Positions 1-39,226 of a DNA stretch of 64,000 bases are shown here, one piece after another. The stretch spans positions 1 through 64,000 of IMG/VR virus record IMGVR_UViG_3300008267_000040; one strand, written 5' to 3'. Source of the stretch: a virus. Each line of letters opens with the position of its first letter. Positions within the stretch are counted from its first letter, which is position 1. The notes beneath the pieces are model-generated. The model was not told where the DNA came from. It made no database searches and saw only the letters and a program-made list of their open reading frames with translations. The translations under genes and the position numbers were made by a program.

Positions 1-972
1 CATGTTGCCCTTTCCTCTACGAGTTCTTTGTGCAATCTGGTTTGCATCACGCTCGATTTGGAAGATAAGACCCTTGAACTTCTCAACTGACCAACGACCG
101 TTGGAGTCAACGTCTAGGTCGAAGATACCTGAAGTTGCTGTGTTTAGAGTTGCACCCTGTTCAGCAATCTTGTAGATGGTTCTGATAACTTCACGGTTGA
201 TTTCAGCAAGAATCTCTGTTGAGAGAATGTTTGCCAACTCAGCCTCAGCATTTAGACCATGGATTGCCTTAAGGTCTTGTGCAAGCTCTAGTGAGTACTC
301 AGCCTTGAGTGCTCTGGACTTTGCAGTAACGGTGACTTTCTCGATTGAGAATGCCATCTCGTTGAATGCACCAGAACCAGAACCATCAAGTGCTTCTGAC
401 TCAGCAGTGCTCATACCTTGACCTACATTGTAGGATCCAGCAGGAGATGCAGTTGGGTTAAGAAGACCTGGGTTTGCACCAGACTGTGCAGTAGTACCGA
501 AACCAGCAGCAACACCAGTTGCTCCTGCGGTATTACCAAATCCAGCATTCTGACCTGAGAATGCGGTATCTGCTTCGTTGAAGAATGCTTCTGTTCCGTT
601 CTGGTTTGTATACTTCGAACGCATTGCGAAGATAAGACCAGTTGGAGCATTCATTGGTTGAACACCTGCGAGGTCATATGCGACCAAGTTAGGCATTGAA
701 CGACGAATGAGTGAAATTAGAACTGGGTCAAAACCAGCAACAGGAGATGATGCTGAACCACTGAAACCTGCAGCACCAGTTGCTGATGGGTCAGTACTTA
801 CAGTTGGGGTTTCGTAGAGGAACTCACGCTCTTCACGGAGTGCTCTCTCTTGGTTTTCTAGCAGGATAGCAGTAACTGCTCTACGGTGGGAATCTCTGAT
901 TTCACCTAGACCGTTATAGTCTAGGAGAGGTGCCCACTTCTCCTGCAATTGTTCTGCATTGAACATTTGCAT
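1..972 (-). CDS. gp23: Major capsid protein gp23 (3' end outside window)
   Basis: The reverse strand stays open from an ATG at 972 to the window edge, giving 324 codons without a stop. The N-terminus begins MQMFNAEQLQEKWAPLLD and continues with features typical of T4-like major capsid proteins: an early acidic/basic helical segment, then IRRSMPNLVAYDLAGVQPM and APTGLIFAMR. An AGAGG ribosome site lies 8 bases before the ATG; a second ATG two codons later (966) is less well spaced. gp23 forms the hexameric lattice of the head. It follows gp22 by about 50 bases, the canonical T4 order 20-21-22-23. A Leu-Tyr-Glu at residues 52-54 fits the gp21 protease consensus and is a candidate maturation site. 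The C-terminal part, probably a third of the protein, is missing only because the window ends. Identification is firm. Confidence 0.96.
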   Translation of the reverse strand, partial: MQMFNAEQLQEKWAPLLDYNGLGEIRDSHRRAVTAILLENQERALREEREFLYETPTVSTDPSATGAAGFSGSASSPVAGFDPVLISLIRRSMPNLVAYDLAGVQPMNAPTGLIFAMRSKYTNQNGTEAFFNEADTAFSGQNAGFGNTAGATGVAAGFGTTAQSGANPGLLNPTASPAGSYNVGQGMSTAESEALDGSGSGAFNEMAFSIEKVTVTAKSRALKAEYSLELAQDLKAIHGLNAEAELANILSTEILAEINREVIRTIYKIAEQGATLNTATSGIFDLDVDSNGRWSVEKFKGLIFQIERDANQIAQRTRRGKGNM

Positions 973-1025: not shown

Positions 1026-2225
1026 TCACTTTTTAGAAACTCTTTCAAGTGCTTGGAGATAAGCACCCATTGTTCCAGTAACTGGTTGTGAGTAGTCAGT
1101 CTCCTCTGCCATATAGTCTTGATTGTCTCTTTGAGTAACTACATTTGATGGGAAATATGATTCCCTCAAAGTTACTAGTTTCTCACGATAGTCTTCTTCA
1201 CTACCAAACTCAACATTTTCTGCAAGAGAAGCGAGCTTGTCTTTCTGTGAAAGTGCAAGTCCTTCAGAAACTTCCGCAAAAATTACGTCAGTTACTGATT
1301 CTGCTAGTCTCTTATTTAGAGCAACATTTCTTTCGATTTGCTCGTTGAGTTTTGACTCCATTTCATCAAGTTTTTCTACCATGCTTTCAAGCACATCATA
1401 TTTATCTTCAGGGATTGTTACATAATGTTCTTCAAAAAGTCCTTTCAGACCCATAAGGAATGATTCAGTTGCTTGAGATTGAATTCCTCTTTCGATTGCA
1501 ATTGCATTCTCCTGAATCCACTCATCAGCAACATACTCAAGATAAGCATCAAGTCTTTCTTCTAGTGCTTCCTCAAGTTCAGCAACTTCTTCTGCTAGTT
1601 TCTCTTCATAATGCGTAAGAATTGCTTCTTCGATTTGTTGAGTTCTAGCATTTAGTGCTGCTTCGAAGATTGTTCTTGCTTTGTCTCTAAACTCTTCTGA
1701 TAAATCTTCACCAGAGAGTAAAGCATCAACATCTTCTTGAATTTCATTCTCAATGGCAATAAATGCCTCTTTCATTTTCTTCTTCTTGCCGTCTTCTTCT
1801 TCACCATCTTCTTCATCATCTTCTTCTTCTTCATCTTCATCTTCATCATCTTCACATGATGCTGCTTCTTCTAGTTCTTCTTCACCTTCTTCGAGTTCGT
1901 ACTCATCTTCTACGAGTTCTTCATCTTCGTCTTCGGACTCCTCTTTCATTGCTTTCATTGGGTCTGCAGACTTAGCACCCTTATTTACAACATCCTTAAC
2001 TTGTGCCAAAGTTGCACCAGGAGTCTTCAGCTTTGCAGAATCATCTGTAGACTTATAATTTTCTGGAGTAGGACCACCAAGGTCTTCCCAACTTCCTGTT
2101 TGACCAGCAACTGCTCCTGGAGCAAGTTTATGCATTGCTTCTGCTGCAGCAGCGTTTGCATTTACAGCAGTTTTAGATTGTTTAGTGCCTGTTTCCATTT
2201 CTTGTAAGTTTTTACCACGGGACAT
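1026..2225 (-). CDS. gp22: Prohead core scaffolding protein gp22
   Basis: This 399-aa protein has an N-terminal segment ending in DLGGPTPENYKSTDD, followed by an extremely acidic low-complexity stretch (about residues 90-150, long Glu/Asp runs). A long charged, helix-forming region follows (residues 155-340) with a pattern suited to coiled coils. In T4-like phages gp22 is the major internal scaffold on which gp23 assembles, and it is later degraded by gp21. The position between gp21 and gp23 and the scaffold-like composition support the call. A GGAGAG ribosome site precedes the ATG, and an exact TATAAATA late promoter lies about 40 bases upstream. It is longer than T4 gp22 (about 270 aa), mainly because of the acidic insert. 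The Ser-rich plus-strand reading of the acidic tract is an artefact of GAA/GAT repeats. Confidence 0.9.
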   Translation of the reverse strand: MSRGKNLQEMETGTKQSKTAVNANAAAAEAMHKLAPGAVAGQTGSWEDLGGPTPENYKSTDDSAKLKTPGATLAQVKDVVNKGAKSADPMKAMKEESEDEDEELVEDEYELEEGEEELEEAASCEDDEDEDEEEEDDEEDGEEEDGKKKKMKEAFIAIENEIQEDVDALLSGEDLSEEFRDKARTIFEAALNARTQQIEEAILTHYEEKLAEEVAELEEALEERLDAYLEYVADEWIQENAIAIERGIQSQATESFLMGLKGLFEEHYVTIPEDKYDVLESMVEKLDEMESKLNEQIERNVALNKRLAESVTDVIFAEVSEGLALSQKDKLASLAENVEFGSEEDYREKLVTLRESYFPSNVVTQRDNQDYMAEETDYSQPVTGTMGAYLQALERVSKK

Positions 2226-2275: not shown

Positions 2276-2926
2276 TCAAAGATTTGATAAAAATTCTTGG
2301 AACAAATTTAGCTTCTGCTCATCAAGAATTTTTTGATCAACTAATGTATTTATTCTCTTATAAGTCTTCTGTGCAAGTTGCTCACGAAGAATTCCACCTT
2401 CCCAAACCCACTCCTTGCCTTCCATAATTCCAGATACAAAAGCATCAGGTGCTGAAGGATCTGCAACAATATCTGCTGCAGTTGCTAACATAAAATCTTC
2501 ACCAACAACTGAATATCCTTCATTGGTTGGCATCAATGAACCAACACCACGAGAAGAAACACCAAGCATTACTCCTTCACCAAGAAGAGAAGAAGCAATT
2601 TTACCCATTGGAGTTTCAAGGATTTTTGCTTTTCCTACGAAATTACTTCCACTTCTATAAAGTTCACAAATTTTGTGTGAAACTCTATCAAGATTTACAG
2701 TTGGACCATCGGGATGTCCAAGTTCTCCAAGAGCACGACCTTTTTGGATAAAGTTTTCATTATACCTTTTAACCTCTCTCTCAAGAGTTCTCATTTCATA
2801 GAGTCTCTTGTTTCTGTTTGGTTTGTCTGCTTGGAGGAAAATTCCTTCAATAAAAAGAGATTTTTTACCGTTCTTTTCTTCGGTAATAACTTTAACCTTT
2901 TCGATTTCTTCTGTGATTAGTTTCAT
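2276..2926 (-). CDS. gp21: Prohead maturation protease gp21
   Basis: A 216-aa serine protease of the T4 prohead family, close to the T4 length (212). The segment FIEGIFLQADKPNRNKRLY matches the conserved N-terminal strand of the family. The ALGELGH motif places the catalytic His at residue 71, and GVSSRGVGSL places the catalytic Ser at about residues 124-125. The later DPSAPDAFVSG is the usual C-terminal conserved block. In T4 this enzyme resides in the prohead core and cuts scaffold, capsid and internal proteins after (Ile/Leu)-x-Glu. Its N-terminus carries ITE at residues 4-6, a possible self-cleavage site. It lies directly upstream of gp22, with an exact late promoter just after its stop codon. 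Confidence 0.93.
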   Translation of the reverse strand: MKLITEEIEKVKVITEEKNGKKSLFIEGIFLQADKPNRNKRLYEMRTLEREVKRYNENFIQKGRALGELGHPDGPTVNLDRVSHKICELYRSGSNFVGKAKILETPMGKIASSLLGEGVMLGVSSRGVGSLMPTNEGYSVVGEDFMLATAADIVADPSAPDAFVSGIMEGKEWVWEGGILREQLAQKTYKRINTLVDQKILDEQKLNLFQEFLSNL

Positions 2927-4520: not shown

Positions 4521-4835
4521 CTAATCAGTCCAAGTTAGTCTTTCTGGTTGATATCTTTGCGAACTCTTAATTTTTAAAGAACTTGTTGTTTGTGGATAGA
4601 TGTTATGAACGATTGCTCCTGGATAATCTCCTTGAAGATTTTCTGCAAGTTCATTTTTTGACATCATTTTACCTTCTACTTCAAGACGATATAATTTTCC
4701 TTCCCAAATTACATCGGCAACAAAAGATTCACCAACTGGTTCTGATTGATTTTCAGAACCGTTGATGTATAGATTTCCATTGAAATCACCAGCAATATTA
4801 ACTGATTCTGAAATAAATTGTCTGTATGATTTCAT
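4521..4835 (-). CDS. Small capsid-targeted internal head protein (predicted)
   Basis: A 104-aa protein starting MKSYRQFISESV. This N-terminus closely resembles the T4 internal-protein capsid-targeting peptide (recalled as MKTYQEFIAEA), which gp21 cuts after the Glu. Here Ile-Ser-Glu at residues 8-10 fits the (Ile/Leu)-x-Glu rule. The rest is a compact module: GDFNGNLYING, then VIWEGKLYRLEVEG, SKNELAENL and YPGAIVHNIYP. The W-x-GK...SKxE...YPGAIV pattern also occurs at the C-terminus of the 349-aa protein at 11878-12927, which has the same kind of N-terminus. It sits 9 bases after the gp67-like gene, inside the head core operon. I infer a protein packaged in the prohead and possibly delivered with the DNA. 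No function is known to me. Confidence 0.7.
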   Translation of the reverse strand: MKSYRQFISESVNIAGDFNGNLYINGSENQSEPVGESFVADVIWEGKLYRLEVEGKMMSKNELAENLQGDYPGAIVHNIYPQTTSSLKIKSSQRYQPERLTWTD

Positions 4836-4844
4836 TTTTATGAC

Positions 4845-5009
4845 TCACTCTTCTTCTGTGTTGTCTTCTAAATCAAACATGTCCGAAACAACATGGGGTC
4901 TAACGGTTTCGATTCTCTCCAATGCTTTTTGCATTAGCATTTGTTTGATTTCGTCACTAACTTCCATGGGAGATTCACCTGTTGCGATTTTACTAATTAA
5001 GTCACTCAT
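4845..5009 (-). CDS. gp67: Prohead core protein, gp67-like (54 aa)
   Basis: A short reverse-strand gene, from an ATG at 5009 to a TGA ending at 4845. It reads MSDLISKIATGESPMEVSDE, then a helical segment with QKALERIE and RPHVVSDMF, and an acidic tail ending EDNTEEE. T4 gp67 is likewise a tiny helical prohead core protein with an acidic C-terminus, encoded between genes 20 and 21, and this gene lies directly downstream of gp20. An exact TATAAATA late promoter overlaps the gp20 stop codon 25 bases before this ATG. Only a 9-base gap separates it from the next gene. The assignment rests on position, size and charge pattern, not on strong identity. Confidence 0.65.
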   Translation of the reverse strand: MSDLISKIATGESPMEVSDEIKQMLMQKALERIETVRPHVVSDMFDLEDNTEEE

Positions 5010-5033
5010 AGTCTTTAAATGTTAATTTAAAAT

Positions 5034-5041
5034 TATTTATA
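5034..5041 (-). promoter_or_regulatory. T4-type late promoter upstream of the gp67-like gene
   Basis: Exact TATAAATA on the minus strand overlapping the gp20 stop codon, 25 bases before the ATG at 5009. Confidence 0.72.
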
Positions 5042-6701
5042 TTTGTCCTGCTTCTGGTTCCATTACTGGAGATCCCATTGAAGCATTAGATTGTGGTTCT
5101 GTTTGTTGAGGAATCTGTTGCCCATCTTGAGGCATTGCCTCTGGGGGCATTGCATTTGGATCTGGTAAAATTCCCTTTTCTATTTCTTTTTTAATTTGCT
5201 TATCAATATCAATAATATCTCCATCAGTTTGCTTCAGGATCTTTGTTCTTACATACTGAACTGAAAAATACCTACCAAGATATGGTTCCATCGCAGCAAC
5301 CACAGCAAGTTTGTCATTCATCAATTCAGATTCTTTTAATTCAGCAAAATGATTATCATAAAGAAAATCATACTGAATGTGATCTGAAAGAACATTCCAG
5401 TCTTCTGGAGTTACAATATTCTTAAGAATAAGTTGTGTTTTTAGAATGTCATTAAATAAATTAGAAAATCTTTTTCTTAGTCTCCCCACAAACTTTGTAA
5501 ATCTTACTTCATCTCTTAGGATTTCTGAAGAACGACCAAGACTAAAACCACTACTAGAATTTGTTCTAGTTTCTGGAACATTCAATGAACGGAATAATTT
5601 CTTTTGGAAATACTCAATATCTGCCAATTCCCCAAGATTTTGCCCACCAGGAAGAGTGGTAATTTCTGTTCCTCTTCCTCCTTCTCTACGTGGCAACCAG
5701 AAATCTTCAAGCATTGCCATATATTTTCTATCATCACGAATCTCTCCAGTGTCTGCGTTATAGACTAATTTGTTTCTATAACGATTCATTACATCACGAA
5801 GATATTGTTCTGCTTTAATCTTTGGAAGATTGCCAACATCAATGTAAAAAATACGACGTTCTGGAGCACGAGATAGTCTATAAATCACAAGACTATCTTC
5901 AATCATTCTAAGTTGATTAAGTGCCTTAATTGCTTTATGTAGATATGATAATACTGTTTGCCTATTCCTATCTACTAATCCAGAAGTAATGTAAGTGACA
6001 GAATCTTTAGACAATCTAACCATTCTAGCATCATTCTTATAACTGTTTGATGTCTGACTACCACCAGTTTGCAATGCTGCATTTGGATTATAAATGTAAT
6101 ACTCTTCCATCTCTGGATTGGTAAAATCAATTGTATTATCCTTATTGATAATAGTATTGAGAGTTCCAGTTAAAGTCTGCTTATCATTTTTTAATTTTCT
6201 GATATAACGAATCTTTAATGGGTCAATGTATCTTACTTCTTTAATACCATCTGCTGGTTTGGTTACATCAATAACTTTGTGGTAATATAATCTTCCATCA
6301 ATATACCAATTCCTAAAAATTTCATGGGCTTTTTTATCAAAGTCCATGATTTCTTTGATGTACTTAAACTCGTTTCTAATTGCTTCTTTTAATTTGTCTG
6401 AAGCAGGAAGATTTGAAAGTTCTATCTCTACTGGAGAATCATTCAAATCCGAAACAATTGCCTCGTCTACAATATCTTCAATAGCACTATCACACTCAGG
6501 GTGAAGTGCCATTTCTCTGTATCTTCTTACTAAATCTTGTTCATTTTTGTATACACCTTCAATATCTACATACTGGCCATAAAACCCACTAGAGATATAA
6601 TAATCTGACTTATCTTCGTCATTTTGAGGAACAGGGGAAAGAATTTTTTCTGAATTTTCTCTCCCCTTATCTTCAAACTTGTAACCAAATAATTTAGGCA
6701 T
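5037..6701 (-). CDS. gp20: Portal vertex protein gp20
   Basis: A 554-aa portal protein, close to T4 gp20 (524 aa). Recognisable blocks include YREMALHPECDSAIEDIVDE near the N-terminus, NEFKYIKEIMDFDKKAHEIF-type helical wing sequence, RRIFYIDVGNLP, and the stretch REGGRGTEITTLPGGQNLGE that is nearly invariant in marine T4-like portals. The C-terminal 50 residues are Pro/Gln/Met-rich and probably flexible. The portal forms the dodecameric vertex that nucleates the prohead and through which gp17 pumps DNA. It follows gp19 by 26 bases, and an exact TATAAATA late promoter overlaps the gp19 stop, 24 bases before this ATG. Confidence 0.96.
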   Translation of the reverse strand: MPKLFGYKFEDKGRENSEKILSPVPQNDEDKSDYYISSGFYGQYVDIEGVYKNEQDLVRRYREMALHPECDSAIEDIVDEAIVSDLNDSPVEIELSNLPASDKLKEAIRNEFKYIKEIMDFDKKAHEIFRNWYIDGRLYYHKVIDVTKPADGIKEVRYIDPLKIRYIRKLKNDKQTLTGTLNTIINKDNTIDFTNPEMEEYYIYNPNAALQTGGSQTSNSYKNDARMVRLSKDSVTYITSGLVDRNRQTVLSYLHKAIKALNQLRMIEDSLVIYRLSRAPERRIFYIDVGNLPKIKAEQYLRDVMNRYRNKLVYNADTGEIRDDRKYMAMLEDFWLPRREGGRGTEITTLPGGQNLGELADIEYFQKKLFRSLNVPETRTNSSSGFSLGRSSEILRDEVRFTKFVGRLRKRFSNLFNDILKTQLILKNIVTPEDWNVLSDHIQYDFLYDNHFAELKESELMNDKLAVVAAMEPYLGRYFSVQYVRTKILKQTDGDIIDIDKQIKKEIEKGILPDPNAMPPEAMPQDGQQIPQQTEPQSNASMGSPVMEPEAGQI

Positions 6702-6724
6702 ATTTCAAAAATAGACGTTTCTAG

Positions 6725-6732
6725 TATTTATA
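6725..6732 (-). promoter_or_regulatory. T4-type late promoter upstream of gp20
   Basis: Exact TATAAATA on the minus strand overlapping the gp19 stop, 24 bases before the gp20 ATG at 6701. Confidence 0.72.
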
Positions 6733-7363
6733 CGTCTTCCTTCGTGCCTAAAATACTCTTTTGGTCACTTCCAAGAGAATCATACCATTGAACTTGTAAA
6801 TCTACACTGAATTCTTCAATAGCATCTGCATTATCGTAGGATAATTCAATCGCACTAACTGATGTTGGGAAAGTTCCGTAGAATTTGTATGATTTCAAAA
6901 TAGGAATCTGTGATTCTGTATTTGGAATTGCCCCAGCATCTGAAGATTGACCAGTAATTCCTCTTCCCAATTGATGAACAACCATTTCGGTTTGATATGC
7001 ATTTGGTGTAATAACACCAGCATTGTCATCGTGTCTATTCATAAAGTTCATCCACTTCTCAAATGCATCTCTAATCTTAAAGTTTGTATCATTAATTACT
7101 GTGATTGACCATGGATCAAATGTTCTATCACCAGCAATCTTTAAGTTTCTTCCTCTAAATGGAATATCAATTACATTAATATTTGATGCAGGAAGACTTG
7201 CTGCTTTAATCATAAATCTATAATCATCATCTTCAAGAATTCCTAGACCGCCTGGAAATTTAATTACACATTCAAATAGATTAGGTCTTGCTCCTCCTCC
7301 GATTAGCTTTCCTTTAAAACTGGATAAAGTTCTTTCTGTGTAGTTTGGTAAATTGTTTGCCAT
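6728..7363 (-). CDS. gp19: Tail tube protein gp19
   Basis: A 211-aa protein, slightly longer than T4 gp19 (163 aa). Landmarks are PNLFECVIKFPGG, FMIKAASLPASNINVIDIPF, GRNLKIAGDRTFDPWSITVI and FEKWMNFMNRHDDN, all typical of contractile-tail tube subunits of this group, and an EFSVDLQVQWYDSLG end. It polymerises as the inner tube inside the gp18 sheath. It is 20 bases downstream of gp18 and 26 bases upstream of gp20, in the canonical 18-19-20 order. The start is the only ATG in a suitable place and has a GAGGT-type ribosome site. Confidence 0.94.
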   Translation of the reverse strand: MANNLPNYTERTLSSFKGKLIGGGARPNLFECVIKFPGGLGILEDDDYRFMIKAASLPASNINVIDIPFRGRNLKIAGDRTFDPWSITVINDTNFKIRDAFEKWMNFMNRHDDNAGVITPNAYQTEMVVHQLGRGITGQSSDAGAIPNTESQIPILKSYKFYGTFPTSVSAIELSYDNADAIEEFSVDLQVQWYDSLGSDQKSILGTKEDV

Positions 7364-7383
7364 TTTTAGTTACCTCTATTAAA

Positions 7384-9768
7384 TTAAACAGTTCCGACTA
7401 CTTCGGAGAAGCTTACGCCAGTGCGGGTGGCAACAAATGTCAGACCAATATAATTAATTGATCTTGCAGGCTTTATGAAGATATCTGCCTTGAATTGATT
7501 TGAATCAATTACATCTGGAGTATTGTTTGATTCATCACAAACAACAATAAATTCAGAAACTCCTCTCTTTGCTTTTACATCACGTAAATAAGGTTCGACA
7601 ATGTTTATAAAGTTTGTCCTTGTGATGAGGTCATTGAATTCAAATAGTTGCGATCTTGCTGCTCTTTCAACTGCTTTTTCTAGGGTTAGGAATAAACGAC
7701 GAACGTTAATTCTATCAAATGCTGATGGATAACCGAGAGCAGTTTTATCACCAAACAAGATAATACCAGCACCAGGAGAAGCAATAACTGGATTAACTCT
7801 CTTGGAATATAGAAGATCTCTTTGTGTTTGTGATGGATTATAAGCAAGTTTGATTGCGTTGTTAAGTGCTCCTCTCACAGATCCTGCTGGGGAGAACCAT
7901 GCATACTGCTCACTAGAAGTTCTTGCCATTAAACCAGCAATATCTGCATTTGTTGGTAGATATAAGAACTTATTATTGAATCTATCTAATGTATATTTAA
8001 ATCCAGTATCAAAAACAGCGTATGAACTAGATGCCAGAGGTTCAAAGAATTCAATAATTTTATTCGTTTGTGTAGTTGAATTTGGTTGATTAACTACATC
8101 ATCTTTATGGGGAGAAATACATGCAATACAATCTTTTCTTTCCTCGGCAATTGCAATCAAAGCACTTGCTTTTGCTTGAGATTCATAAATTGTTGCCCCA
8201 CCAGAAGGACCTTGAATTAGGAAATCCAAAGTATATTCTGCAGGATTTTCAAACTTTTTGTATGCAGAAACAATATTTGCAAGAGTTGCTGCCATTCCAC
8301 CAGAGTTGGAATAATCAGAACCTGCAGTTAGTGTGTATGATTTATTTCCCTGAACACTAAATTTAATTGATTGTGCAGCAGAACCCCAAGAACCAGTTTC
8401 TAGAGTATATGCTCTAGCATTGCCTGAACTTGGAATTAGACCTGAAGCAATATTTGCTCTTGCTGCACCAACATATAAGTTCTCAGAATTTTTTGAAATA
8501 TAATCTTTATAGTAAATTGCTTGAGATGGACTTATCTTTGCGTCAGATGCTTTTGATAAGAAGGTATATTTTTCAATTACATTTGAAGCACTTCCAGTAA
8601 TTTTTCCAGAATCATCAACAACAACTATATGGACCTGATCATTCTTTGAACTTCTTTCTAGTGCATATTGTGATGAACTTGGTTTTGGTGCAATATTTTT
8701 CCAGTAAATGGTTGCATTTGATAGACCAAGTGTTTGTTGGTCATACCAATCCTTTGTTCCCAAATCAGTAGTAAATGTAGAGGTTGTGACACCTGCAGTA
8801 GTTACTACATTGATAGCTTCTACTGTACCAAAAGAATATGCATTAGTAGATTCTCCTGGATTTTTATAGTCAATTGGTTCAGATACACCAGATGAATTTA
8901 CTCTATCTGTAATTTTTACACTAATCTGCTCTCTTCCAACTTCAGTAATAATACCTCTAATAAATCCATCAAAGTTATTTACAACTCCACCAGAAGCATA
9001 TTGGGCAGAAAGTTTTTGTGTTACTGCAAGTCCAACTTGTACTGTTGTTGGTGTTACTACAGTAGATACTTCATTGAATGTAAAAGATGCACCAGTTTCT
9101 ACTGTAGAGTTAGTAGAATCTGCACTTAAAATTAAAGTACTTGAACCAATTGAAATAATATTTGTTCCAGTTGCAAAAAATCCACTAACAATTCTATTTC
9201 CAACAGTAAGAGACGAAGTGTTAATACCAGTAACTAAATTCGTTGTAATTCCAAGATTACCAGTTTTAGTTCCAATATTTGTTGTTACTGTGGTTGTTAG
9301 TGATGTTGTTCCGATTCCAGAGATGATTTGATCTGCTAAAGCATCAATAGAACATACCTTTAATTGGTTTGCCCATGTACCTGGTGTTTTTGCTGCAAAT
9401 TCCCAGGTAGAATCATTTAGATGGTTACTCTGATAATCATCATCTGATTCTATTTTTAGGGTTGATAGTGCATCTGAGTTTGCATTATACAGAGTTGGTC
9501 CATCTGCTCTAACGACTCTCAGTACTCCACCATAAGATAAAAATGAAGATGCGGATAACCAGTACTCGTTCTGGGAATCTTTTTCTAGTGGTTTTCCAAA
9601 ACTTCTTAGTAAGTCTGCTTCAGTTTCTACTAAAACAGGAACTCCAATAGGTCCTTTCTCGAATGGACCTGCAAAAGCACCAACTTGATCAGTTACTGCA
9701 TCAATTCTACCAATAGTTAAGTCAACTTCTCTTATTTTTACCCCAGGTGATACTAAATTTAACGCCAT
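7384..9768 (-). CDS. gp18: Contractile tail sheath protein gp18
   Basis: A 794-aa sheath protein (T4 gp18 is 659 aa). It begins MALNLVSPGVKIREVDLT, the usual start of T4-like sheath subunits, with AFAGPFEKGPIGVPVLV following. The C-terminal core is clear: SPAGSVRGALNNAIKLAYNP, VNPVIASPGAGIILFGDKTA, DRINVRRLFLTLEKA, then a basic/acidic domain and the terminal FVATRTGVSFSEVVGTV. The middle third (about residues 140-340) is Thr/Ser/Ile-rich and variable, which accounts for the extra length. The sheath contracts to drive the tube through the host envelope. An exact TATAAATA promoter lies about 39 bases upstream of the ATG. Confidence 0.96.
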   Translation of the reverse strand: MALNLVSPGVKIREVDLTIGRIDAVTDQVGAFAGPFEKGPIGVPVLVETEADLLRSFGKPLEKDSQNEYWLSASSFLSYGGVLRVVRADGPTLYNANSDALSTLKIESDDDYQSNHLNDSTWEFAAKTPGTWANQLKVCSIDALADQIISGIGTTSLTTTVTTNIGTKTGNLGITTNLVTGINTSSLTVGNRIVSGFFATGTNIISIGSSTLILSADSTNSTVETGASFTFNEVSTVVTPTTVQVGLAVTQKLSAQYASGGVVNNFDGFIRGIITEVGREQISVKITDRVNSSGVSEPIDYKNPGESTNAYSFGTVEAINVVTTAGVTTSTFTTDLGTKDWYDQQTLGLSNATIYWKNIAPKPSSSQYALERSSKNDQVHIVVVDDSGKITGSASNVIEKYTFLSKASDAKISPSQAIYYKDYISKNSENLYVGAARANIASGLIPSSGNARAYTLETGSWGSAAQSIKFSVQGNKSYTLTAGSDYSNSGGMAATLANIVSAYKKFENPAEYTLDFLIQGPSGGATIYESQAKASALIAIAEERKDCIACISPHKDDVVNQPNSTTQTNKIIEFFEPLASSSYAVFDTGFKYTLDRFNNKFLYLPTNADIAGLMARTSSEQYAWFSPAGSVRGALNNAIKLAYNPSQTQRDLLYSKRVNPVIASPGAGIILFGDKTALGYPSAFDRINVRRLFLTLEKAVERAARSQLFEFNDLITRTNFINIVEPYLRDVKAKRGVSEFIVVCDESNNTPDVIDSNQFKADIFIKPARSINYIGLTFVATRTGVSFSEVVGTV

Positions 9769-9806
9769 TTGTTTCCCCTCTTGAAGAAGTTCATTTAGTC
9801 TAAAAG

Positions 9807-9814
9807 TATTTATA
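9807..9814 (-). promoter_or_regulatory. T4-type late promoter upstream of gp18
   Basis: Exact TATAAATA on the minus strand, 39 bases before the gp18 ATG at 9768, in the 85-base gap after the zinc-ribbon gene. Confidence 0.75.
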
Positions 9815-9853
9815 ATTTAGACCCTTTATAATGGGGAAATCAATAGTGAACAA

Positions 9854-10087
9854 TTACCAGTCTGGATACTCCCATTTACTTACTTTTTTGTGATTAGTTT
9901 TTCTGCTTTCCTTTATCCTGTTTATCGTACATAATTTACATTCATATGAATAAGCAGAATGGATATTTCCCCTCCCCTTTCTAGTCAAGTAAAATCCATC
10001 TACCAAGTCTTTTATTTCCCCACACACTCTACATTTTCTTTCGGTGAGAAATACACAGTCTAATTCAAACTGTTCTTCTAAATCCAT
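9854..10087 (-). CDS. Small zinc-ribbon-like protein of unknown function
   Basis: A 77-aa protein starting at an ATG that shares one base with the gp17 stop (TAATG), so it is probably translationally coupled to gp17. An alternative GTG start 15 bases upstream is possible but less likely. Two Cys pairs, CRVC (residues 19-22) and CKLC (about 51-54), are about 30 residues apart, with GEIKDLVDGFYLTRKGRG between them. This spacing suits a zinc ribbon like those preceding many phage HNH endonucleases, but no HNH catalytic motif follows. The C-terminus is basic. It may bind DNA or act near the packaging motor; that is inference from position. The following 85 bases to gp18 carry only the gp18 promoter. 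Confidence 0.7.
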   Translation of the reverse strand: MDLEEQFELDCVFLTERKCRVCGEIKDLVDGFYLTRKGRGNIHSAYSYECKLCTINRIKESRKTNHKKVSKWEYPDW

Positions 10088-11739
10088 TATCTGTAATCCC
10101 ACATATAGGACCTATCACCATATTCATCTGTATACCATCTATCACCATTATTATCCACAAAGGTTGTTTCCATTTCCGATAATCCATCAGATATAAAACC
10201 AAAAGGTGACATATCCTGCTCTATCTGATTTTTTTGTTCATCGTAAATTCTTTTGCGGATATCATTATCCGTCATTTCCTTAAAGTATGGTTGAACAATC
10301 AACCAGGATAATATGACCAAACACATTGCTAAGTCATCATTACAACCATCCTCTGCTTCAAATGATTGACTCTTTTGAATAAAAGTAGTTAACTCACTGA
10401 TTACATCATAGTCTTTGATAATTAATTTATCATCTTCTATAATTGTTTTTAAGTTTGAGCATCCAACCTTTTTAACATTTTTAGACATCTTTACACCAAG
10501 TTGAGATTTCTTCCCAGAGAAACCTTGCCCCACTAATTGACCTGCACGACCTCTCATCGCACACATCAAAAGATTGCTATACTCCAAATCGAAGTGGAGC
10601 ATATTTGATACTTGCTCACCAATATCATTCACCTCCACAAGAATATATGAGTAATTATATGCTCTCCCAACTTTGTCAATAATTGATGGAAATAGGATTG
10701 GTTTTATATCATTATCTCTATATTTTGCCACTAATGTATATGGGAAAGTTGTTATGTCAACAACAACAAATGCAGAATAATCTTTACCAGTTCCTCTAGC
10801 AACGTCAACTGTCATCATATAATTATGGTCTTTTATTGGTTCCTCATAAACATCAAGACCTTTATTTGATGTCAGTGGGTCTTCATATACCATTGAACGA
10901 AGTTTTGATGGTGCAATCAATGTATCAACCGAACCCAGGAACTCGCATTCAAATTCCTGTGTAAACTGACGTTCAGAAGTATTGCGTATCGTTTCTTCTT
11001 TCCATGCAGCATCTCTGCCAGGAACTGCACTCCAGTGAACTTCCAATGGTCTATACCCATTTCTACCCCTCTCGGCATCGTGCCAGAGTTTGTAGAACAT
11101 GTTCATCCCATTTGGAGTTGAGATGATAATAACCTTAGTTGTCTTACCAGAAGAAATTGTAGGATATACAGAACTAAAGAACTGTTCTGCAATATGATTT
11201 GGAATGAACGCAAATTCGTCCAAGAAGATGATATTAAATGAGTTTCCTCGGACAGCAGATGATGAGGTAGATGCTGCTACAATCTTACTACCATTCTCAA
11301 GTTCTAATGAACCTTTGTTCCAAGAACCAACACCCTGCTGTAACCACTTGGGTAGGTTCTCATAAGAAAGTTGCAATCTTTGAAGAAGTTCTCTAGCAGT
11401 TTCTGCTTTGTTTGCAAGGATTGCAATTCTTATGTTATCATTAAACAAAGCATAGTGAAGCAAATATGAAACTACGGTAGTAGATTTCCCTGTCTGTCTA
11501 GGTAATTTCGCAATATTAAATCTATTATTATGGAAGTTTGAAATTAACTCTTTTTGAAAATCATACATTTCAAAGGGAATCAAACCTTCATCAAGTGAAA
11601 CAATCTTGACATAGTTCATTGCAAAGTAAACTGGGTCGTCTTTGCACCTTAAGTATTCTTGAATTTGATCTGTTGTAAATTCAATTTGGACATTCTCTGC
11701 CTTAAGGTTTGGATTGCCCTTATAATGTTTTTCAGTCAT
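10087..11739 (-). CDS. gp17: Terminase large subunit gp17 (packaging ATPase/nuclease)
   Basis: A 550-aa terminase (T4 gp17 is 610). The ATPase domain shows a Walker A-type motif RQTGKST at residues 81-87, the Q-motif-like MYDFQKELI before it, Walker B IIFLDEF with Asp174-Glu175, and the coupling motif STPNG. The RNase H-like nuclease domain shows VDVARGTGKDYSAF (Asp312), LVEVNDIGEQ (Glu369) and CNDDLAMCLV (Asp468/469), the three acidic positions of the T4 enzyme. The motor docks on gp20, translocates DNA and cuts the concatemer. Its ATG overlaps the stop of the 59-aa gene upstream (ATGA). All key residues are present. Confidence 0.97.
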   Translation of the reverse strand: MTEKHYKGNPNLKAENVQIEFTTDQIQEYLRCKDDPVYFAMNYVKIVSLDEGLIPFEMYDFQKELISNFHNNRFNIAKLPRQTGKSTTVVSYLLHYALFNDNIRIAILANKAETARELLQRLQLSYENLPKWLQQGVGSWNKGSLELENGSKIVAASTSSSAVRGNSFNIIFLDEFAFIPNHIAEQFFSSVYPTISSGKTTKVIIISTPNGMNMFYKLWHDAERGRNGYRPLEVHWSAVPGRDAAWKEETIRNTSERQFTQEFECEFLGSVDTLIAPSKLRSMVYEDPLTSNKGLDVYEEPIKDHNYMMTVDVARGTGKDYSAFVVVDITTFPYTLVAKYRDNDIKPILFPSIIDKVGRAYNYSYILVEVNDIGEQVSNMLHFDLEYSNLLMCAMRGRAGQLVGQGFSGKKSQLGVKMSKNVKKVGCSNLKTIIEDDKLIIKDYDVISELTTFIQKSQSFEAEDGCNDDLAMCLVILSWLIVQPYFKEMTDNDIRKRIYDEQKNQIEQDMSPFGFISDGLSEMETTFVDNNGDRWYTDEYGDRSYMWDYR

Positions 11740-11915
11740 AAACTATTAAAATTTAAACTTGCTAGTGTTTCTTGATACTTTAAATGGAGTTTTACATATG
11801 ATTTTGCAATATTTTTAAGTTGCTCTACATCATTGCATGAATCAATTTCCCTTGAAATCCTTTCGTATTCAAAGTTTTTATTTAGGTTTTCTAGGGTTAT
11901 TTTGGACGGATCCAT
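11736..11915 (-). CDS. 59-aa protein upstream of gp17
   Basis: A short gene too small for most ORF cut-offs. It starts at an ATG at 11915 inside the 3' end of the 349-aa gene (38-base overlap) and stops in a TGA that overlaps the gp17 start (ATGA). The product begins MDPSKITLENLNKNFEYERI, continues with helical, charged sequence including DVEQLKNIAKSYVKLHLKY, and ends LASLNFNSL. It looks like a two-helix or coiled-coil peptide with no motif. Tight coupling to gp17 suggests an accessory of packaging or a translational coupler. I recall similar small proteins in this location in other marine T4-like phages, without an assigned function. Confidence 0.75.
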   Translation of the reverse strand: MDPSKITLENLNKNFEYERISREIDSCNDVEQLKNIAKSYVKLHLKYQETLASLNFNSL

Positions 11916-12927
11916 TCTGTTCTCCCGTGAATAATAATGGTTTTGTGGGGTCTTTTGGGGTTGGTTTCCAAGATAGAACTATTGCTCCTGGATATATTTT
12001 ATTAATTTCAAATGAAACTTGCTCTTTTGATGGTCTTGTAAATTGTGGGAAGAATATTTGAACCCCCAAAGTCTTGCCCCTCCAGTTTAACATTATACCA
12101 TAAGTTGTGCCACGAGATTGTATAAAAGAATAATTTTCTTCTACTGAAGAACCTCTTAGTGGAGATGGTTTAATGATATCAGTAAATATGTACTCAACTG
12201 GTTTAAATTCATCTCTCCAGTTTGAGTAATCATAACTTTCTTTTTTGGTTTTATTTCCCCAATTTGCTGCTCCAACTTTACGACATTTAACTAATGCCCC
12301 AGATGCATAAGCACTGGGCCATACAGAGTAACGAGATTTTACCTTACTGTAGCAGGCATCCTTTTTCTCAATAATAGTCTCTTCCGTTGCAACATTAGTT
12401 GGTTTTGCTGCACCTGTCTTTTCTGGTTGATTTGGGTCTTTTCTATTTTTTCTTCTAAATGCTTTATCCTCTTCGTCATCTGATAAGTTTGCTGCCATCT
12501 TAGAACTTCCACATTTTGGAGTAGAGGTTTGTCCTGGTTGACGGGCACAAGGAGCACCTGCATATTTACCTCCAAGTTGTCTCCAACCTGGAACTTTTCT
12601 TCCTGTTTTGGGGTCAGTTGCACTTGATTTTCTAAACCAATCCCCAAGGGTTTCATCTCCAGATGCTGTCTCTTCTTTTATCTTCTCTGCTTTTTTTAAT
12701 CTAGAATAATAATCTGGTAATTCTTCAAGATGCTGCAATGCAATCATTCTTGCCATCTTCTTACTTCCAGTATGTTCACTCTCTACTTTAATTCCCATCT
12801 CCAACTGAGAATTTAAAGCATCCATTGTGATTTTGTGCTTTTTCACAATTTCTTCTGGGGACATATATTTTTTGATAGGTCCCTTTGGGTCAGTTGCTTC
12901 TGAAATAAATTGAGAAAAAGGTTTCAT
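11878..12927 (-). CDS. Capsid-targeted multidomain protein, probable internal head protein
   Basis: A 349-aa protein starting MKPFSQFISEAT, very like the T4 internal-protein capsid-targeting peptide, with Ile-Ser-Glu at residues 8-10 as predicted gp21 cut site. Modules in order: residues 22-85, a helical unit with GIKVESEHTGSKKMA and HLEELPDYYSRL (pattern of DUF5661); residues 96-145, GWRQLGGKYAGAPCARQPGQ then PKCGSSKM, a short basic Cys-containing unit; residues 190-228, ACYSKVKSRYSVWPSAYASG followed by ALVKCRKVGAANWGNK, another small basic unit (DUF5872-like, name uncertain); residues 278-322, NWRGK...SKEQ...YPGAIV, shared with the 104-aa protein at 4521-4835. The basic middle could bind nucleic acid. 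It sits between gp16 and gp17. Function unknown; packaging into the head is inference from the N-terminus. Confidence 0.75.
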   Translation of the reverse strand: MKPFSQFISEATDPKGPIKKYMSPEEIVKKHKITMDALNSQLEMGIKVESEHTGSKKMARMIALQHLEELPDYYSRLKKAEKIKEETASGDETLGDWFRKSSATDPKTGRKVPGWRQLGGKYAGAPCARQPGQTSTPKCGSSKMAANLSDDEEDKAFRRKNRKDPNQPEKTGAAKPTNVATEETIIEKKDACYSKVKSRYSVWPSAYASGALVKCRKVGAANWGNKTKKESYDYSNWRDEFKPVEYIFTDIIKPSPLRGSSVEENYSFIQSRGTTYGIMLNWRGKTLGVQIFFPQFTRPSKEQVSFEINKIYPGAIVLSWKPTPKDPTKPLLFTGEQNGSVQNNPRKPK

Positions 12928-16725: not shown

Positions 16726-19700
16726 CTTGTGCTTCTGACCAACGCAGAACTAGATTGCTCGTAATGTTACTGCCATTTGTTAAGTAGACGTTAATTGCAA
16801 GAACATCGGGGCCATTCGGGAATGTGCCTCTTCCACCAATTGGTGTGTTGTTAAGCTCTTTAAGTTCGGAGAGGTCAATGGTTGACTTATCTGTTGCTGT
16901 TGCAACAAAAGAGAATACAGTTTCTCCAGGTGCAGCAGATACGGTGTTTGCTGTAAATGTGTAAGTAGTTCCTGATGGACCAGAATTTACAGAGTTAGAA
17001 AACTGCACATAATTTCTATTCGCATCACGTCTAAAAATATTAATAACTCTTGTACCACCAGGAACACCTGTTCCACTAACAAAGAATCCAATTCTTACAT
17101 TTGCTACATCTACTGCATTAAAGACTTGATACTGTGTAAAATAGTTTTGAACTTCTGCTGTTGCTGCATTTATTGTTTGTGCTCCACCTTCCCAAGTAAT
17201 TGCAGATGCGTTGGCAATTTGTGCAAATGATGGTTGTCCACCAGCACCCTGTGATGTAAGAGTAAACCACTGAACTAAAGATGGATTTGATGGATAGTTG
17301 GAAGGATTCAAAATACCTTCAATGATGACTGCTTGTGATGTTGAACCACCTGTTGGAGTGAATTCGAGTGACTTCAATAGCAATTGTGCTCGGTTTATTA
17401 ATTCTCTCTGTCCTAAGTCTCCAGTAATCGCATTTGAAACACTAGGAGAAAGTCGAATCATGAATGCAGTCGTCTTTGTTGTTGATATAGTTCCACCAAC
17501 ATATGGATAGTTAAAAATATATCCCCTATCACTATCAAATAAACCATCGGTTAAGAATGCAGAACCCCAGTGACTGATTACTGGAGTTGCAGTATTACTT
17601 AATAAAATAGCACCAGAACCTTCCGAGTGGGATGCTGCTGCTCCTGCAGTATATGTTCTAAATGAACCAGAAGAATAATTTCCGAATGATGCTGCTCTTG
17701 TGATACCAGTTAAAGTATTTCCAGATTTTCCTGTATAATTTATTAATTCATTATCAACATAAATTGTTCCTGAGGATGGATATAGAGAAGCATCTACTAG
17801 GGAAACTGTTGTTTGTGATTGAGATATAGTTGAAGCAAGTTTAGATTTGGGACCTTCATTGATGACTTCATATCTAACTGGTAGGTTACCAGATCTCATA
17901 TATGCTTCTGTATTTGAGTTATTATTCTTTAATCTATGAACGAATAAGTAATTTCCATCTGGACCACGTAACATCCAATCGATAAATCCAGCACCATACC
18001 AAGTATATTGGAAACCAATCATTTGCATTTTATTGATTTCAATTTCATAACCACTAGCACCAGTTCCATCAGCTTTATCGATATTCCATTGAGTTTGTGG
18101 AATAATTCTATCTTGAACTAATGTTGCTTTTGCACCTGAAATTGAACTTACCCCTCTAAAGTCTGGTGATACCGTAATCGCATTATTTCCAATAATTGTT
18201 GTTACAACATGAGTCATTCCCCTAATAACAATTCTATCTCCTACAACTAATTGATCAGTAAATCTTGTATTTGCTCCAGTCACCAAATTGGAATCTGGAG
18301 TAGCAGAAATTGTTCCAGCAAGTTGGAATGTTGCCGATCTTAGTCCAACTGCCAAATTAATTCCATCATATTGCCAGAAAATACCATTTTGGTCATCAAA
18401 TGCACCAGCACGTACTGTTGCACCTTTCCATCTATAAAGTGATAAAGTGGGTGGTCTTCCCAGAACTGGACTTGTTGATGCCAATGAATTTACTGCTAGT
18501 ACTGTAAATGTGTTCTCATTAATTACGCTATTTACAGTATAATGACCATTATATCCTGGAGTTTCAATATTACTAATTGCTACCTCTGCTCCTACCTGAA
18601 CACCGTGTTCAGTGTCATCAGTTGTTATTGTAACGACACTTCCAATTGAGGTTGATGCTGCAGAAACACTTCTAATATCATAACTTGGTGCGAACAAAGC
18701 ACCAGTGGTGTACATTACACCTTTACCTGATTGATATCTAATATACTTTTTGGATTGACGAACTGCATGTGCTCCATGGGCAGGTCCACCGACACCCAAT
18801 TGAACTCCACCATCAAAAGGTCTATGAACATAGAAGCAGTCTGGTCTTGGGTATACAGTTCCAGCAATTCCAGATGCCGAAACAGAACCAGGTGTTCTTG
18901 CATTAAAAACAATTGAATTGCTAGTTGGAGTACTGTCAATAACGAATGGACCTGATGCTAATGAATGTCCTGTTCCCGCAGAAGTTACTGTTGATGTAAT
19001 GGTGTCTCCTGGAACGAGACCATGTGCATTTGCAAATGAAACCTGGAATCTTGCTAAAGATGAATGAGAAATTGAAGCACCATCTGAAATTGGAGAAGAT
19101 GTCAATTCCGAAACAGCAACTGATGGGAAGAAGTTTAATATTGCTCCAGTATTTGGTGTTCCAGTAGCAACTACTGTTTGTATTCTTCCTCTTGTTGAAC
19201 TATCTGGTGTAGTAGTAGAAACTGTAATGAATAAATCATTCGATGGAGTTGTTCCTCCTAATAAATTTCCCAAAATCTTTAATTGGTAACCTGGGAAATA
19301 TCCAGTTCCTTGAGCATCAGGAGTTACAATATACCCACCAGCAGATTTTGTAATATTAAATGTTCCACCAGAACCAGTAAGAATTGGAGCAACATTGGTG
19401 TATGAAACATTTCCAGAAATAGAAGTTCCAGAAACAGTAAATGCAGAAATTGCACCACTACCATCTACAGAAGTTGCTGTAATAACTAAATTATTTGTTC
19501 CAGAAGAACCACCTAAAACTGAACCATCAATTGTAATGGTATCGGACAAAGCATATGCCGATCCAGTTGATGTTTGTCCTGTTCTAAAAGTTACAGTATA
19601 TGCTCCAGAACCAGATCTATAAACATCAAATTCTGCACCAACACCAAAACCAGTTGTTATTCCTGTTATACCAGAATAAGTTCTATAACTTGGTACTGCA

Positions 19701-30921: not shown

Positions 30922-31881
30922 TTAAACATACCTTACGGTTACACGTACTGCACCTGCCCAACCAGGGTTTCCACAGCAGCAACCACCCGCACATACAGTT
31001 GCAGAAGCACCACCTAAACCAGGAACATAATTATGTTCAATATAACCACCAAAACCTAAATTACCTGCTGCCCATGTTTGATTCCAGTTTCCGCAAGTAG
31101 AATTTTCACATTGGTGTGATGAGACCCAACCACCTTTTTGGTTTACTAATCCTCCTGGATAAGCAATGTGGTACAAGTTCCAGCAACGGTTTTGGTGGCA
31201 GAACAGACCATAAGCACCAGGAAGACCAAATGCCCCACCATCCGCACCAAAATAACGAGCACAACATCCAACACACGAAGTATTAAGACCTACAATATTG
31301 TCAGTTCCACCAAATCCTTCAGAAGCACCTATTGCAGTTTTCCAATAACATTTCTTACCACAAAACTGAGTAATACAGAATGAGCAACCACCCCATCCAC
31401 CTTCAGCATAAAATCCAGTAAGTCCAGTTCCAGTTACTGTAGTGCATTCACCTCTTAAACCAGTAACATCAGGAACTTTACATGTTGGTGAACCAATTCT
31501 AAAGACATATGGTGTTCCAGATGCTACACCAACAACGGTTTTGAATGCATATGCACCAGCACCTCCAGGAATTCCGTAAGCACAGCAGCAAGCACCTGCT
31601 CCACCGCCACCAGCACCCCAAATTTCAAAGGTAATTGCAGTTGTACCTGCTCCAGGATATGAAGGAACTTTCCAGCAACAATATACAAAATTGTTAAAAC
31701 CCATCGTATAGTCACCTGCTGGTGCTTGACAACAAGTGGTTTCATAACTACCATCGGTATTACCGCACATGTGTGCCATGAAATAAGTTACTTGACCCTC
31801 TCTGAGTCTTCCAATACCACCTGAATGAATTCCTGTGAAATTTGGTTCTGCTGAACCCAACAGAGTTCTAAGATTTGCCAT
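30922..31881 (-). CDS. Cys/Gly-rich tail adhesin paralogue A
   Basis: A 319-aa protein with about 25 cysteines. It opens with MANLRTLLG, a short N-terminal signature shared with the next two genes. Residues about 80-120 read FEIWGAGGGGAGACCCAYG then PGGAGAYAFKTV, the pattern of a glycine-rich tail-fibre domain in which flexible Gly positions are joined by Cys triplets. Later units are FYAEGGWGGCSFC, YFGADGGAFGLPGAYGLF, AYPGGLVNQKGG and GLGGASATVCAGGCCCGNPG, ending VRVTVRYV. Glycine-rich motifs of this kind form polyglycine-type lattices in receptor-binding tips. A GATAAATA lies 23 bases upstream of the ATG. Probably a receptor-binding protein; the role of the cysteines (metal or disulfide) is unknown. 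Confidence 0.75.
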   Translation of the reverse strand: MANLRTLLGSAEPNFTGIHSGGIGRLREGQVTYFMAHMCGNTDGSYETTCCQAPAGDYTMGFNNFVYCCWKVPSYPGAGTTAITFEIWGAGGGGAGACCCAYGIPGGAGAYAFKTVVGVASGTPYVFRIGSPTCKVPDVTGLRGECTTVTGTGLTGFYAEGGWGGCSFCITQFCGKKCYWKTAIGASEGFGGTDNIVGLNTSCVGCCARYFGADGGAFGLPGAYGLFCHQNRCWNLYHIAYPGGLVNQKGGWVSSHQCENSTCGNWNQTWAAGNLGFGGYIEHNYVPGLGGASATVCAGGCCCGNPGWAGAVRVTVRYV

Positions 31882-31903
31882 TTTTAATATTTCCTCTTAA
31901 AGG

Positions 31904-31911
31904 TATTTATC
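31904..31911 (-). promoter_or_regulatory. Near-consensus late promoter upstream of adhesin A
   Basis: GATAAATA on the minus strand, 23 bases before the ATG at 31881, overlapping the end of adhesin B. One mismatch to the late octamer. Confidence 0.4.
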
Positions 31912-32869: not shown

Positions 32870-32882
32870 TTAAAATCTCCTA

Positions 32883-39218: not shown

Positions 39219-39226
39219 TATTTATC
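39219..39226 (-). promoter_or_regulatory. Near-consensus late promoter upstream of the 149-aa gene
   Basis: GATAAATA on the minus strand, 23 bases before the ATG at 39196, overlapping the stop of the repeat protein gene. Confidence 0.4.

Follow-up and report, generated by a model that had tools for sequence, protein, structure and literature searches.

The internal proteins IPII and IPIII of bacteriophage T4 carry a 10-residue N-terminal leader, the capsid-targeting sequence (CTS); they are encoded with gp21 and gp22, and their mature parts are basic. Both ipII and ipIII begin MKTYQEFIAEA, as the initial annotation of the DNA described here had stated. T4 also packages and ejects an ADP-ribosyltransferase, Alt, a head-carried enzyme which is processed by gp21. 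The Alt propeptide differs from the CTS-type leader. In genetic studies of the CTS, residues 4 and 7 were tied to targeting, and residues 8 and 10 to processing (PMC9026906). For giant phages of the SPN3US family, two reports describe ejected head proteins whose propeptides are removed by a gp21-like protease (PMC5694885, PMC10052503); the likeness to the present case is one of general theme, with diverse head cargo and protease-removed propeptides in another phage lineage. No report of a CTS-like leader in cyanophages was found in the open-access literature searched.

The window studied here, a stretch of 64,000 nucleotides from a 103.6-kb viral contig, encodes two proteins with such a leader, P0001 and P0002 (Table 1). 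Their ORFs have the positions and sizes initially annotated (104 and 349 aa), lie on the minus strand, which that annotation did not give, and start MKSYRQFISES and MKPFSQFISEA, with the Ile-Ser-Glu previously noticed at residues 8–10. They are the only ORFs in the contig beginning MK.[FY]..F[ILV][SATG]E; relaxing the leader pattern recovered no further ORFs there. Their placement is also as first described: P0001 lies in the head operon, between gp20 and gp21/gp22, and P0002 between gp16 and gp17. This odd arrangement is a common relocation; among 80 relatives, the phrog_1742–phrog_1645 pair follows P0002 in approximately 39 loci and gp20 in approximately 27. The phrog_1645 homolog S-SZBM1_190 has been detected by mass spectrometry (MS). 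A Pfam search with P0001 gave no match, and the mature parts of the two proteins have no IP family matches in Pfam or PHROG, in agreement with the earlier view that they are unlike T4 IPs. The description of the phage as marine is unsupported, because the nearest isolate for P0001 came from a freshwater reservoir. Identity of P0001 as a gp67 homolog was considered and rejected, since a distinct gp67-like ORF exists. In gp23, the FLYE motif stands where T4 gp23 has its maturation site, FLTE↓A.

Table 1. Features of the window that bear on the CTS-like leader and its carriers
Feature	Coordinates	Strand	Basis or remark
gp23 residues 51–54, FLYE, then T	811..822	-	
gp22 core scaffold, proposed leader receptor	1026..2225	-	PF25623, E 2.7e-76
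gp21 prohead protease (Peptidase_S77), proposed processing enzyme	2276..2926	-	PF03420, E 5.5e-37
phrog_1645 virion structural protein, moves together with P0001	3244..4518	-	PHROG match
P0001, 104-aa protein, phrog_1742 family	4521..4835	-	PHROG match, E 1e-42
P0001 W-x-GK ... YPGAIV module, residues 37–81	4593..4727	-	AlphaFold2 pLDDT about 83–89
P0001 CTS-like leader, residues 1–10, MKSYRQFISE; predicted gp21 cut FISE↓S after Glu10	4806..4835	-	
54-aa acidic ORF in T4 gp67 position (gp67-like)	4845..5009	-	Between gp20 and P0001
P0002, 349-aa mosaic protein, gp16/gp17 interval	11878..12927	-	
P0002 residues 265–349, basic C-terminal segment with YPGAIV module (274–322), predicted fragment 4	11881..12135	-	AlphaFold2 pLDDT 81–94
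P0002 residues 188–264, KKDACYSKVKSRYSVWPSAYASGALVKCRKVG Cys module, predicted fragment 3; site VEE264 kept in 31/32	12136..12366	-	
P0002 residues 86–187, phrog_727-type 'DWF...GGKYAGxPC...KCGSSK', predicted fragment 2; site IIE187 kept in 26/32	12367..12672	-	
P0002 residues 11–85, DUF5661 segment, predicted fragment 1; site IKE85 kept in 32/32	12673..12897	-	PF18905, E 2e-13
P0002 CTS-like leader, residues 1–10, MKPFSQFISE; predicted cut FISE↓A	12898..12927	-	

Both leaders follow the T4 capsid-targeting pattern, with aromatic residues at positions 4 and 7, Ile or Leu at 8 and Glu at 10. The likeness to IPII and IPIII, in which the same positions are key, extends to a hydrophobic residue 8 and a small P1' residue, the sites reading ISE↓S in P0001 and ISE↓A in P0002. 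The combination of F/Y4 with F7 occurs in 36 of 36 P0001-type sequences, and also in P0002. Among P0001 homologs, which were found by homology, K2, F7 and E10 are invariant and residue 8 is Ile, Leu or Met. Synonymous codons of the leader vary among these homologs, and a nucleotide-level origin of the motif was rejected on that ground; F4 is encoded by TTT and TTC equally, and selection therefore acts on the protein. The gp21 protease and the gp22 core are encoded in the same phage, beside P0001. For the leader as a class, the capsid-targeting property is well supported, and the leader can with good confidence be read as a cyanophage form of the CTS that loads cargo into the prohead, where gp21 would free the cargo and also cut P0002. 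In the proposed sequence of events, F4 and F7 would bind the gp22/gp67 core and so bring the attached protein into the prohead. Cleavage by gp21 after Glu10, at the observed signature of hydrophobic-x-Glu followed by Ala or Ser, would then release the cargo. Cargo families remain in the mature virion, as published MS shows for relatives, and, by analogy with T4, part of the cargo may enter the host with the DNA.

The two proteins also share the C-terminal W-x-GK ... SK-x ... YPGAIV module that had been proposed from the sequence. Since plain BLASTP between P0001 and P0002 was too weak (E 0.013), profiles were used, and the profile–profile comparison of the module gave a probability of 96% (E 2.6e-9, 54 columns). 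A structural comparison, which the initial annotation had called for, yielded AlphaFold2 models that are both beta-beta-alpha-beta, in identical order. Nothing significant was found when both modules were compared by sequence with solved structures, and a Foldseek search of the PDB with the P0002 module gave no match with E below 0.001. In Foldseek the P0002 module weakly resembled T7 Gp2 and YkzG, an RNA polymerase epsilon-like protein, and P0001 searched against a viral structure library found its own relatives best, followed by inhibitors of RNA polymerase (E 0.03); structural likenesses to RNA polymerase-related proteins were left out of the functional evidence.

P0002 differs from IPII and IPIII in being a multi-module protein with internal sites. 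A hydrophobic-x-Glu stands at each module boundary, and it is therefore proposed to be a polyprotein cut by gp21. The protease would probably cut after about E85, E187 and E264 to give four small basic pieces (predicted net charge +3 to +8), a likeness to the basic T4 mature fragments; the pieces, some of which contain Cys, could bind DNA. The four sites are kept in 26–32 of 32 leader-bearing P0002-type sequences (31 for FISE↓A in the leader), with the middle residue variable. Directly upstream of modules, [ILVMF]xE was found in 83 of 121 windows, compared with 34 ± 4 after shuffling and 44 for the reversed motif; over whole proteins there is no bias (457 vs 429). Relatedness among the proteins in this test makes its shuffle P optimistic. 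That these motifs are ordinary acidic linkers and P0002 is packaged whole is somewhat doubtful, but it draws weight from this relatedness and from the fact that the cuts are predicted from sequence motifs; the forward motif nevertheless outnumbers both the reversed motif and the shuffles in those windows, and the sites hold their positions amid variable flanks. P0002 relatives are present in published virion MS data, namely S-SCSM1 gp029 and S-CREM2 ORF137 and ORF160. The N-terminal leader is absent from all three, so other signals must exist.

Those detections agree, for P0002, with the earlier suggestion of a set of packaged, possibly injected proteins; for P0001, virion presence is unproven, because homologs are undetected in two virion proteomes and the mature part is acidic (net charge -5), in contrast to the basic T4 IPs. 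The homologs concerned, S-SCSM1 gp030 and S-SZBM1_191 of phrog_1742, both carry the leader and are absent from the two virion MS lists; S-SZBM1_192, also leader-bearing, is absent from its list. P0001 would share the targeting of P0002; it may be cargo present in few copies, or it may belong to the core and be removed as the head matures. The same observations, together with the position of P0001 within the head-core operon of the window, are consistent with a leader that targets the prohead core, with P0001 and perhaps P0002 serving as scaffold or core proteins that are degraded or expelled like T4 gp67/gp68. This is unlikely, given that a gp67-like ORF is separately present, that about half of the relatives place P0001 beside P0002 and gp17, outside the core operon, and that mature virions contain P0002 relatives.

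Judged from its distribution in sequence data, the leader is detachable and sits on dozens of unrelated proteins, a further difference from IPII and IPIII, since enzymes are among them. In a scan of IMG/VR at least 120 stretches matched, compared with 11 for a codon-reversed control, in which 10 of the 11 matches have ORFs under 50 aa. Among the matches listed, 81 leader ORFs fall into 38 clusters of unrelated proteins. Residue 11, which lies outside the search pattern, is Ala or Ser in 50 of 75 leaders among the matches listed, and in 20 of 36 clusters when the two largest of the 38 are set aside; such an excess is expected after a gp21 cut. Scans of the S-PM2 and S-CBWM1 genomes found no leader genes. 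S-TIM5 has one leader match, a hypothetical protein adjoining 'virion structural protein and packaging' genes. The spread of the leader, virion-detected enzymes included, had been missed by the initial annotation, as had the modularity of P0002 with its conserved gp21-like boundary sites.

In published cyanophage virion proteomes, 7 of 10 leader genes were detected, where 1.9 were expected (P 4e-4). A doubtful S-CREM2 ORF (MNFKKWFKEW, 17943–18947), which follows a relaxed pattern without K2, is absent from the MS list, and the statistics are given both ways: with it, 7 of 11 leader genes are detected (P 0.001). Counting the cytidylyltransferase family once leaves a modest association (P 0.03; 0.055 if the doubtful ORF is included). 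In S-CREM2 the following genes bear the leader and are all in the MS list: ORF6 (SAM lyase), ORF14 (kinase), ORF136 and ORF154 (cytidylyltransferase). Leader and MS detection also coincide in S-SCSM1 NMNAT, S-SZBM1_140 and S-SM1 T4-GC190. The cyanophage virion cytidylyltransferase/NMNAT (T4-GC190, phrog_395) bears the same leader and is repeatedly detected in virions by MS, and its route into the virion is not explained in the proteome literature examined here. These enzymes share with T4 Alt the theme of a head-carried enzyme, but their activities are those of a cytidylyltransferase/NMNAT, a kinase and a SAM lyase. The same tag on virion-detected enzymes suggests that cyanophages carry protein cargo alongside DNA.

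One proteome paper regards the cytidylyltransferase, SAM lyase and kinase as possible virion cargo or carry-over, and the S-SCSM1 and S-CREM2 authors state that their MS lists may include carry-over from the lysate; contamination is raised by authors themselves (PMC9602691, PMC10665884). That these enzymes are abundant lysate contaminants, and that the leader has another role such as membrane or replication-site anchoring, is nonetheless improbable: the same families come from several independent purifications, and the leader predicts which non-structural proteins appear in MS. In the genomes scanned, none of the ORFs for DNA polymerase, RNR or helicase has the leader at its annotated start, and a divergent S-PM2 homolog of the virion-detected enzyme lacks the leader and was not recovered from S-PM2. 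The idea that the N-terminus is only a short amphipathic start that arose by convergence, or a nucleotide element (ribosome binding or late promoter), may be set aside as highly improbable, for although the leader is short and the catalogue includes GNAT, HNH, HTH and ParB-like ORFs without virion evidence, F4, F7 and E10 are fixed despite synonymous variation, K2 is present in every match even with position 2 free in the pattern, and the control count, the Ala/Ser enrichment at P1' and the association with MS lists all stand against it.

Read as a capsid-targeting tag, the leader brings abundant aquatic viruses within the scope of T4-type head targeting, and their cargo is far wider than the set of internal proteins in T4. 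There is perhaps an even chance that in cyanophages and other aquatic T4-like phages one transferable head-loading tag serves a customisable cargo of ejected effectors, and that these phages also pack polyproteins from which the prohead protease releases several small DNA-binding peptides within the head; the effectors would include SAM lyase, kinase, NMNAT-like, nuclease-like and, possibly, ADP-ribosyltransferase proteins. The question of cargo or contamination becomes directly testable for the NMNAT-like enzyme, the kinase and the SAM hydrolase. The leader also gives a handle on many uncharacterised phage proteins, among them phrog_1742, phrog_727, DUF5661, DUF6321 and phrog_3561. It provides a sequence rule for predicting particle-borne cyanophage proteins, and therefore indicates enzymes that may be active just as infection takes place.

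The 103,628-base IMG/VR virus record that contains the window encodes T4-type structural genes, and the two open reading frames described in the initial annotation, P0001 and P0002, are both present at their coordinates with the gene neighbours claimed for them (see table). They are the only two ORFs in the whole contig that bear the strict leader pattern at their N-terminus. The phage had been called marine, a label which is not supported because the closest isolate for P0001, S-SRM01, came from a freshwater reservoir.

Features of the window and predicted modules of the two leader-bearing proteins
Feature	Position	Strand	Description	Neighbours or basis
P0001	4521-4835	(-)	104 aa, phrog_1742	gp20 on one side, gp21-gp22 genes on the other
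P0001 module	residues 37-81		beta-beta-alpha-beta	AlphaFold2, pLDDT about 83-89
P0002	11878-12927	(-)	349 aa	flanked by gp16 and gp17
P0002 module	residues 274-322		beta-beta-alpha-beta	AlphaFold2, pLDDT 81-94
Gly/Cys-rich paralogues	31000-34000	(-)	three in tandem, 319, 320, 379 aa; WGGGGGGAG and ADGGA repeats	within fibre region
Repeat protein	39225-43538	(-)	1437 aa; many YVGSGSLFGFxGxA repeats	

The C-terminal module said to be common to both proteins was upheld: their family profiles align over 54 columns (96% probability, E 2.6e-9), and the order of strands and helix is identical in the two predicted folds. Independently, a structure search with P0001 returned S-CAM9 gp114 and an S-SCSM1 'virion protein', both P0002-type. 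Structure comparison also gave the module a weak, non-significant likeness to YkzG, which is RNA polymerase epsilon-like, and to T7 Gp2.

The N-terminus given in the initial annotation for T4 internal proteins, MKTYQEFIAEA, is indeed present on T4 ipII and ipIII. Ten residues of IPIII are enough for packaging, residues 4 and 7 of its capsid-targeting sequence (CTS) acting in targeting and residues 8 and 10 in processing (reviewed in PMC9026906). Judged by sequence, the P0001/P0002 leader follows the T4 CTS pattern. Homology searching collected 36 P0001-type sequences; all of them have K2, F7 and E10, with F or Y at position 4 and I, L or M at position 8. Residue 5 is variable, and F4 is encoded by TTT and TTC in equal shares. 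Where the maturation site falls, gp23 reads EFLYE|T in the window phage, SFLAE|A in S-SCSM1 and GLLTE|A in S-CREM2. T4 gene 61.1 (NC_000866 18966-19130) encodes a 54-aa protein whose N-terminus, MKTFKEFIKE, is a good CTS match; its product is possibly an unrecognised T4 internal protein.

The leader is transferable between proteins. A search of IMG/VR for leader starts, run at codon level with residue 11 outside the pattern, returned at least 120 matching stretches, against 11 in the entire database for the reversed-order codon control (10 of these with ORFs <50 aa). The 81 leader ORFs read among the matches form 38 clusters, including phrog_1742, cytidylyltransferases, P0002-type mosaics and DUF6321 alone. 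Many small, basic proteins belong to the set as well, as do a SAM lyase, a lytic transglycosylase fold, GNAT, HNH and DUF6267. Residue 11 is Ala/Ser in 50 of 75 leader sequences, and in 20/36 clusters with the two largest left out. One leader ORF (L294:10529-11047, minus strand) continues with 'YHGTHISNVESISSTGL' and has an ADP-ribosyltransferase-like look (compare T4 Alt); nothing in Pfam or PHROG matched it. A second module, AKxLGLxGDGHGxWYDxxTGEFVAKTVGGxLKFY (phrog_3561 N-terminus), follows the leader in unrelated enzymes; it is carried by S-CREM2 ORF12 and ORF14, S-CRM01 g128 and the NMNAT genes of P-SSM2, S-SRM01, S-SCSM1 and DSL-LC02, and is a possible cargo adaptor. Among the open-access papers covered, capsid targeting combined with cyanophage or Synechococcus yielded only T4 and SPN3US papers.

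Leader-gene products are present in virions. For S-CREM2, 52 virion proteins are published (PMC10665884 Table 3). ORF6 (SAM hydrolase), ORF14 (APH/ChoK-like kinase), ORF136 and ORF154 (cytidylyltransferase) each begin with the leader, and each is among the 52; ORF6 and ORF14 were discovered blind. ORF13, ORF15 and the Cas9-like ORF12, with leader variants, are likewise listed. In agreement, S-SCSM1 NMNAT, S-SZBM1_140 and the S-SM1 cytidylyltransferase combine leader and virion detection. Across four proteomes, mass spectrometry (MS) detected 7/10 leader genes against 1.9 expected (P 4e-4), or 7/11 with a doubtful S-CREM2 ORF included (P 0.001); with the cytidylyltransferase entered a single time, P lies between 0.03 and 0.055. 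By homology, this enzyme carries the leader in 10/10 cyanophages with a readable N-terminus; the S-SKS1 record, which breaks the gene into two ORFs, lies outside this set. S-PM2 has a divergent, leaderless homolog, which was not detected in its virions (PMC3037559). The S-CRM01 Ser/Thr kinase g130 begins MISFDQFLSE, and a putative kinase is reported from S-CRM01 virions, as cited in PMC10665884. S-SCSM1 gp279 (L194:31626-31835), a 69-aa virion protein, ends in a leader-like motif, KRTFKEFLEYIE.

P0002 homologs are mosaics of short modules. In 83 of 121 windows, a module is preceded within 14 residues by a hydrophobic-x-Glu site, compared with 34.2±4.4 for shuffled and 44 for reversed-motif controls; over whole proteins the motif and its reverse occur with equal frequency (457 against 429). 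Across 32 P0002-type sequences that carry the leader, P0002 among them, the four sites are conserved in 31, 32, 26 and 31, with a variable middle residue. We infer that P0002 may be a polyprotein processed at module boundaries; cleavage there would give fragments 11-85, 86-187, 188-264 and 265-349, with computed net charges of +3, +3, +6 and +8.

The claim that both proteins are packaged was partly supported: P0002 relatives are on MS virion lists; P0001 homologs are absent from two such lists, those of S-SCSM1 and S-SZBM1. S-SCSM1 gp029, a P0002-type mosaic immediately upstream of that phage's P0001 homolog, is annotated 'virion protein', consistent with an MS analysis that detected 45 proteins in its purified virions; S-CREM2 ORF137 and ORF160, with YPGAIV-like, DUF6321 and Cys modules, are also listed. 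All three lack an N-terminal leader, and therefore the leader is not the sole route into virions. A motif, (F/Y)S(N/D/W)WRxE(L/F), recurs across virion and mosaic proteins (P0002 YSNWRDEF at residues 234-241, S-SCSM1 gp280, S-CREM2 ORF155, S-SKS1) and is a possible second sorting motif for leaderless proteins. Mature P0001 is acidic, and the protein could belong to the core or be cargo packaged in few copies. By analogy with T4, some of the cargo would be ejected.
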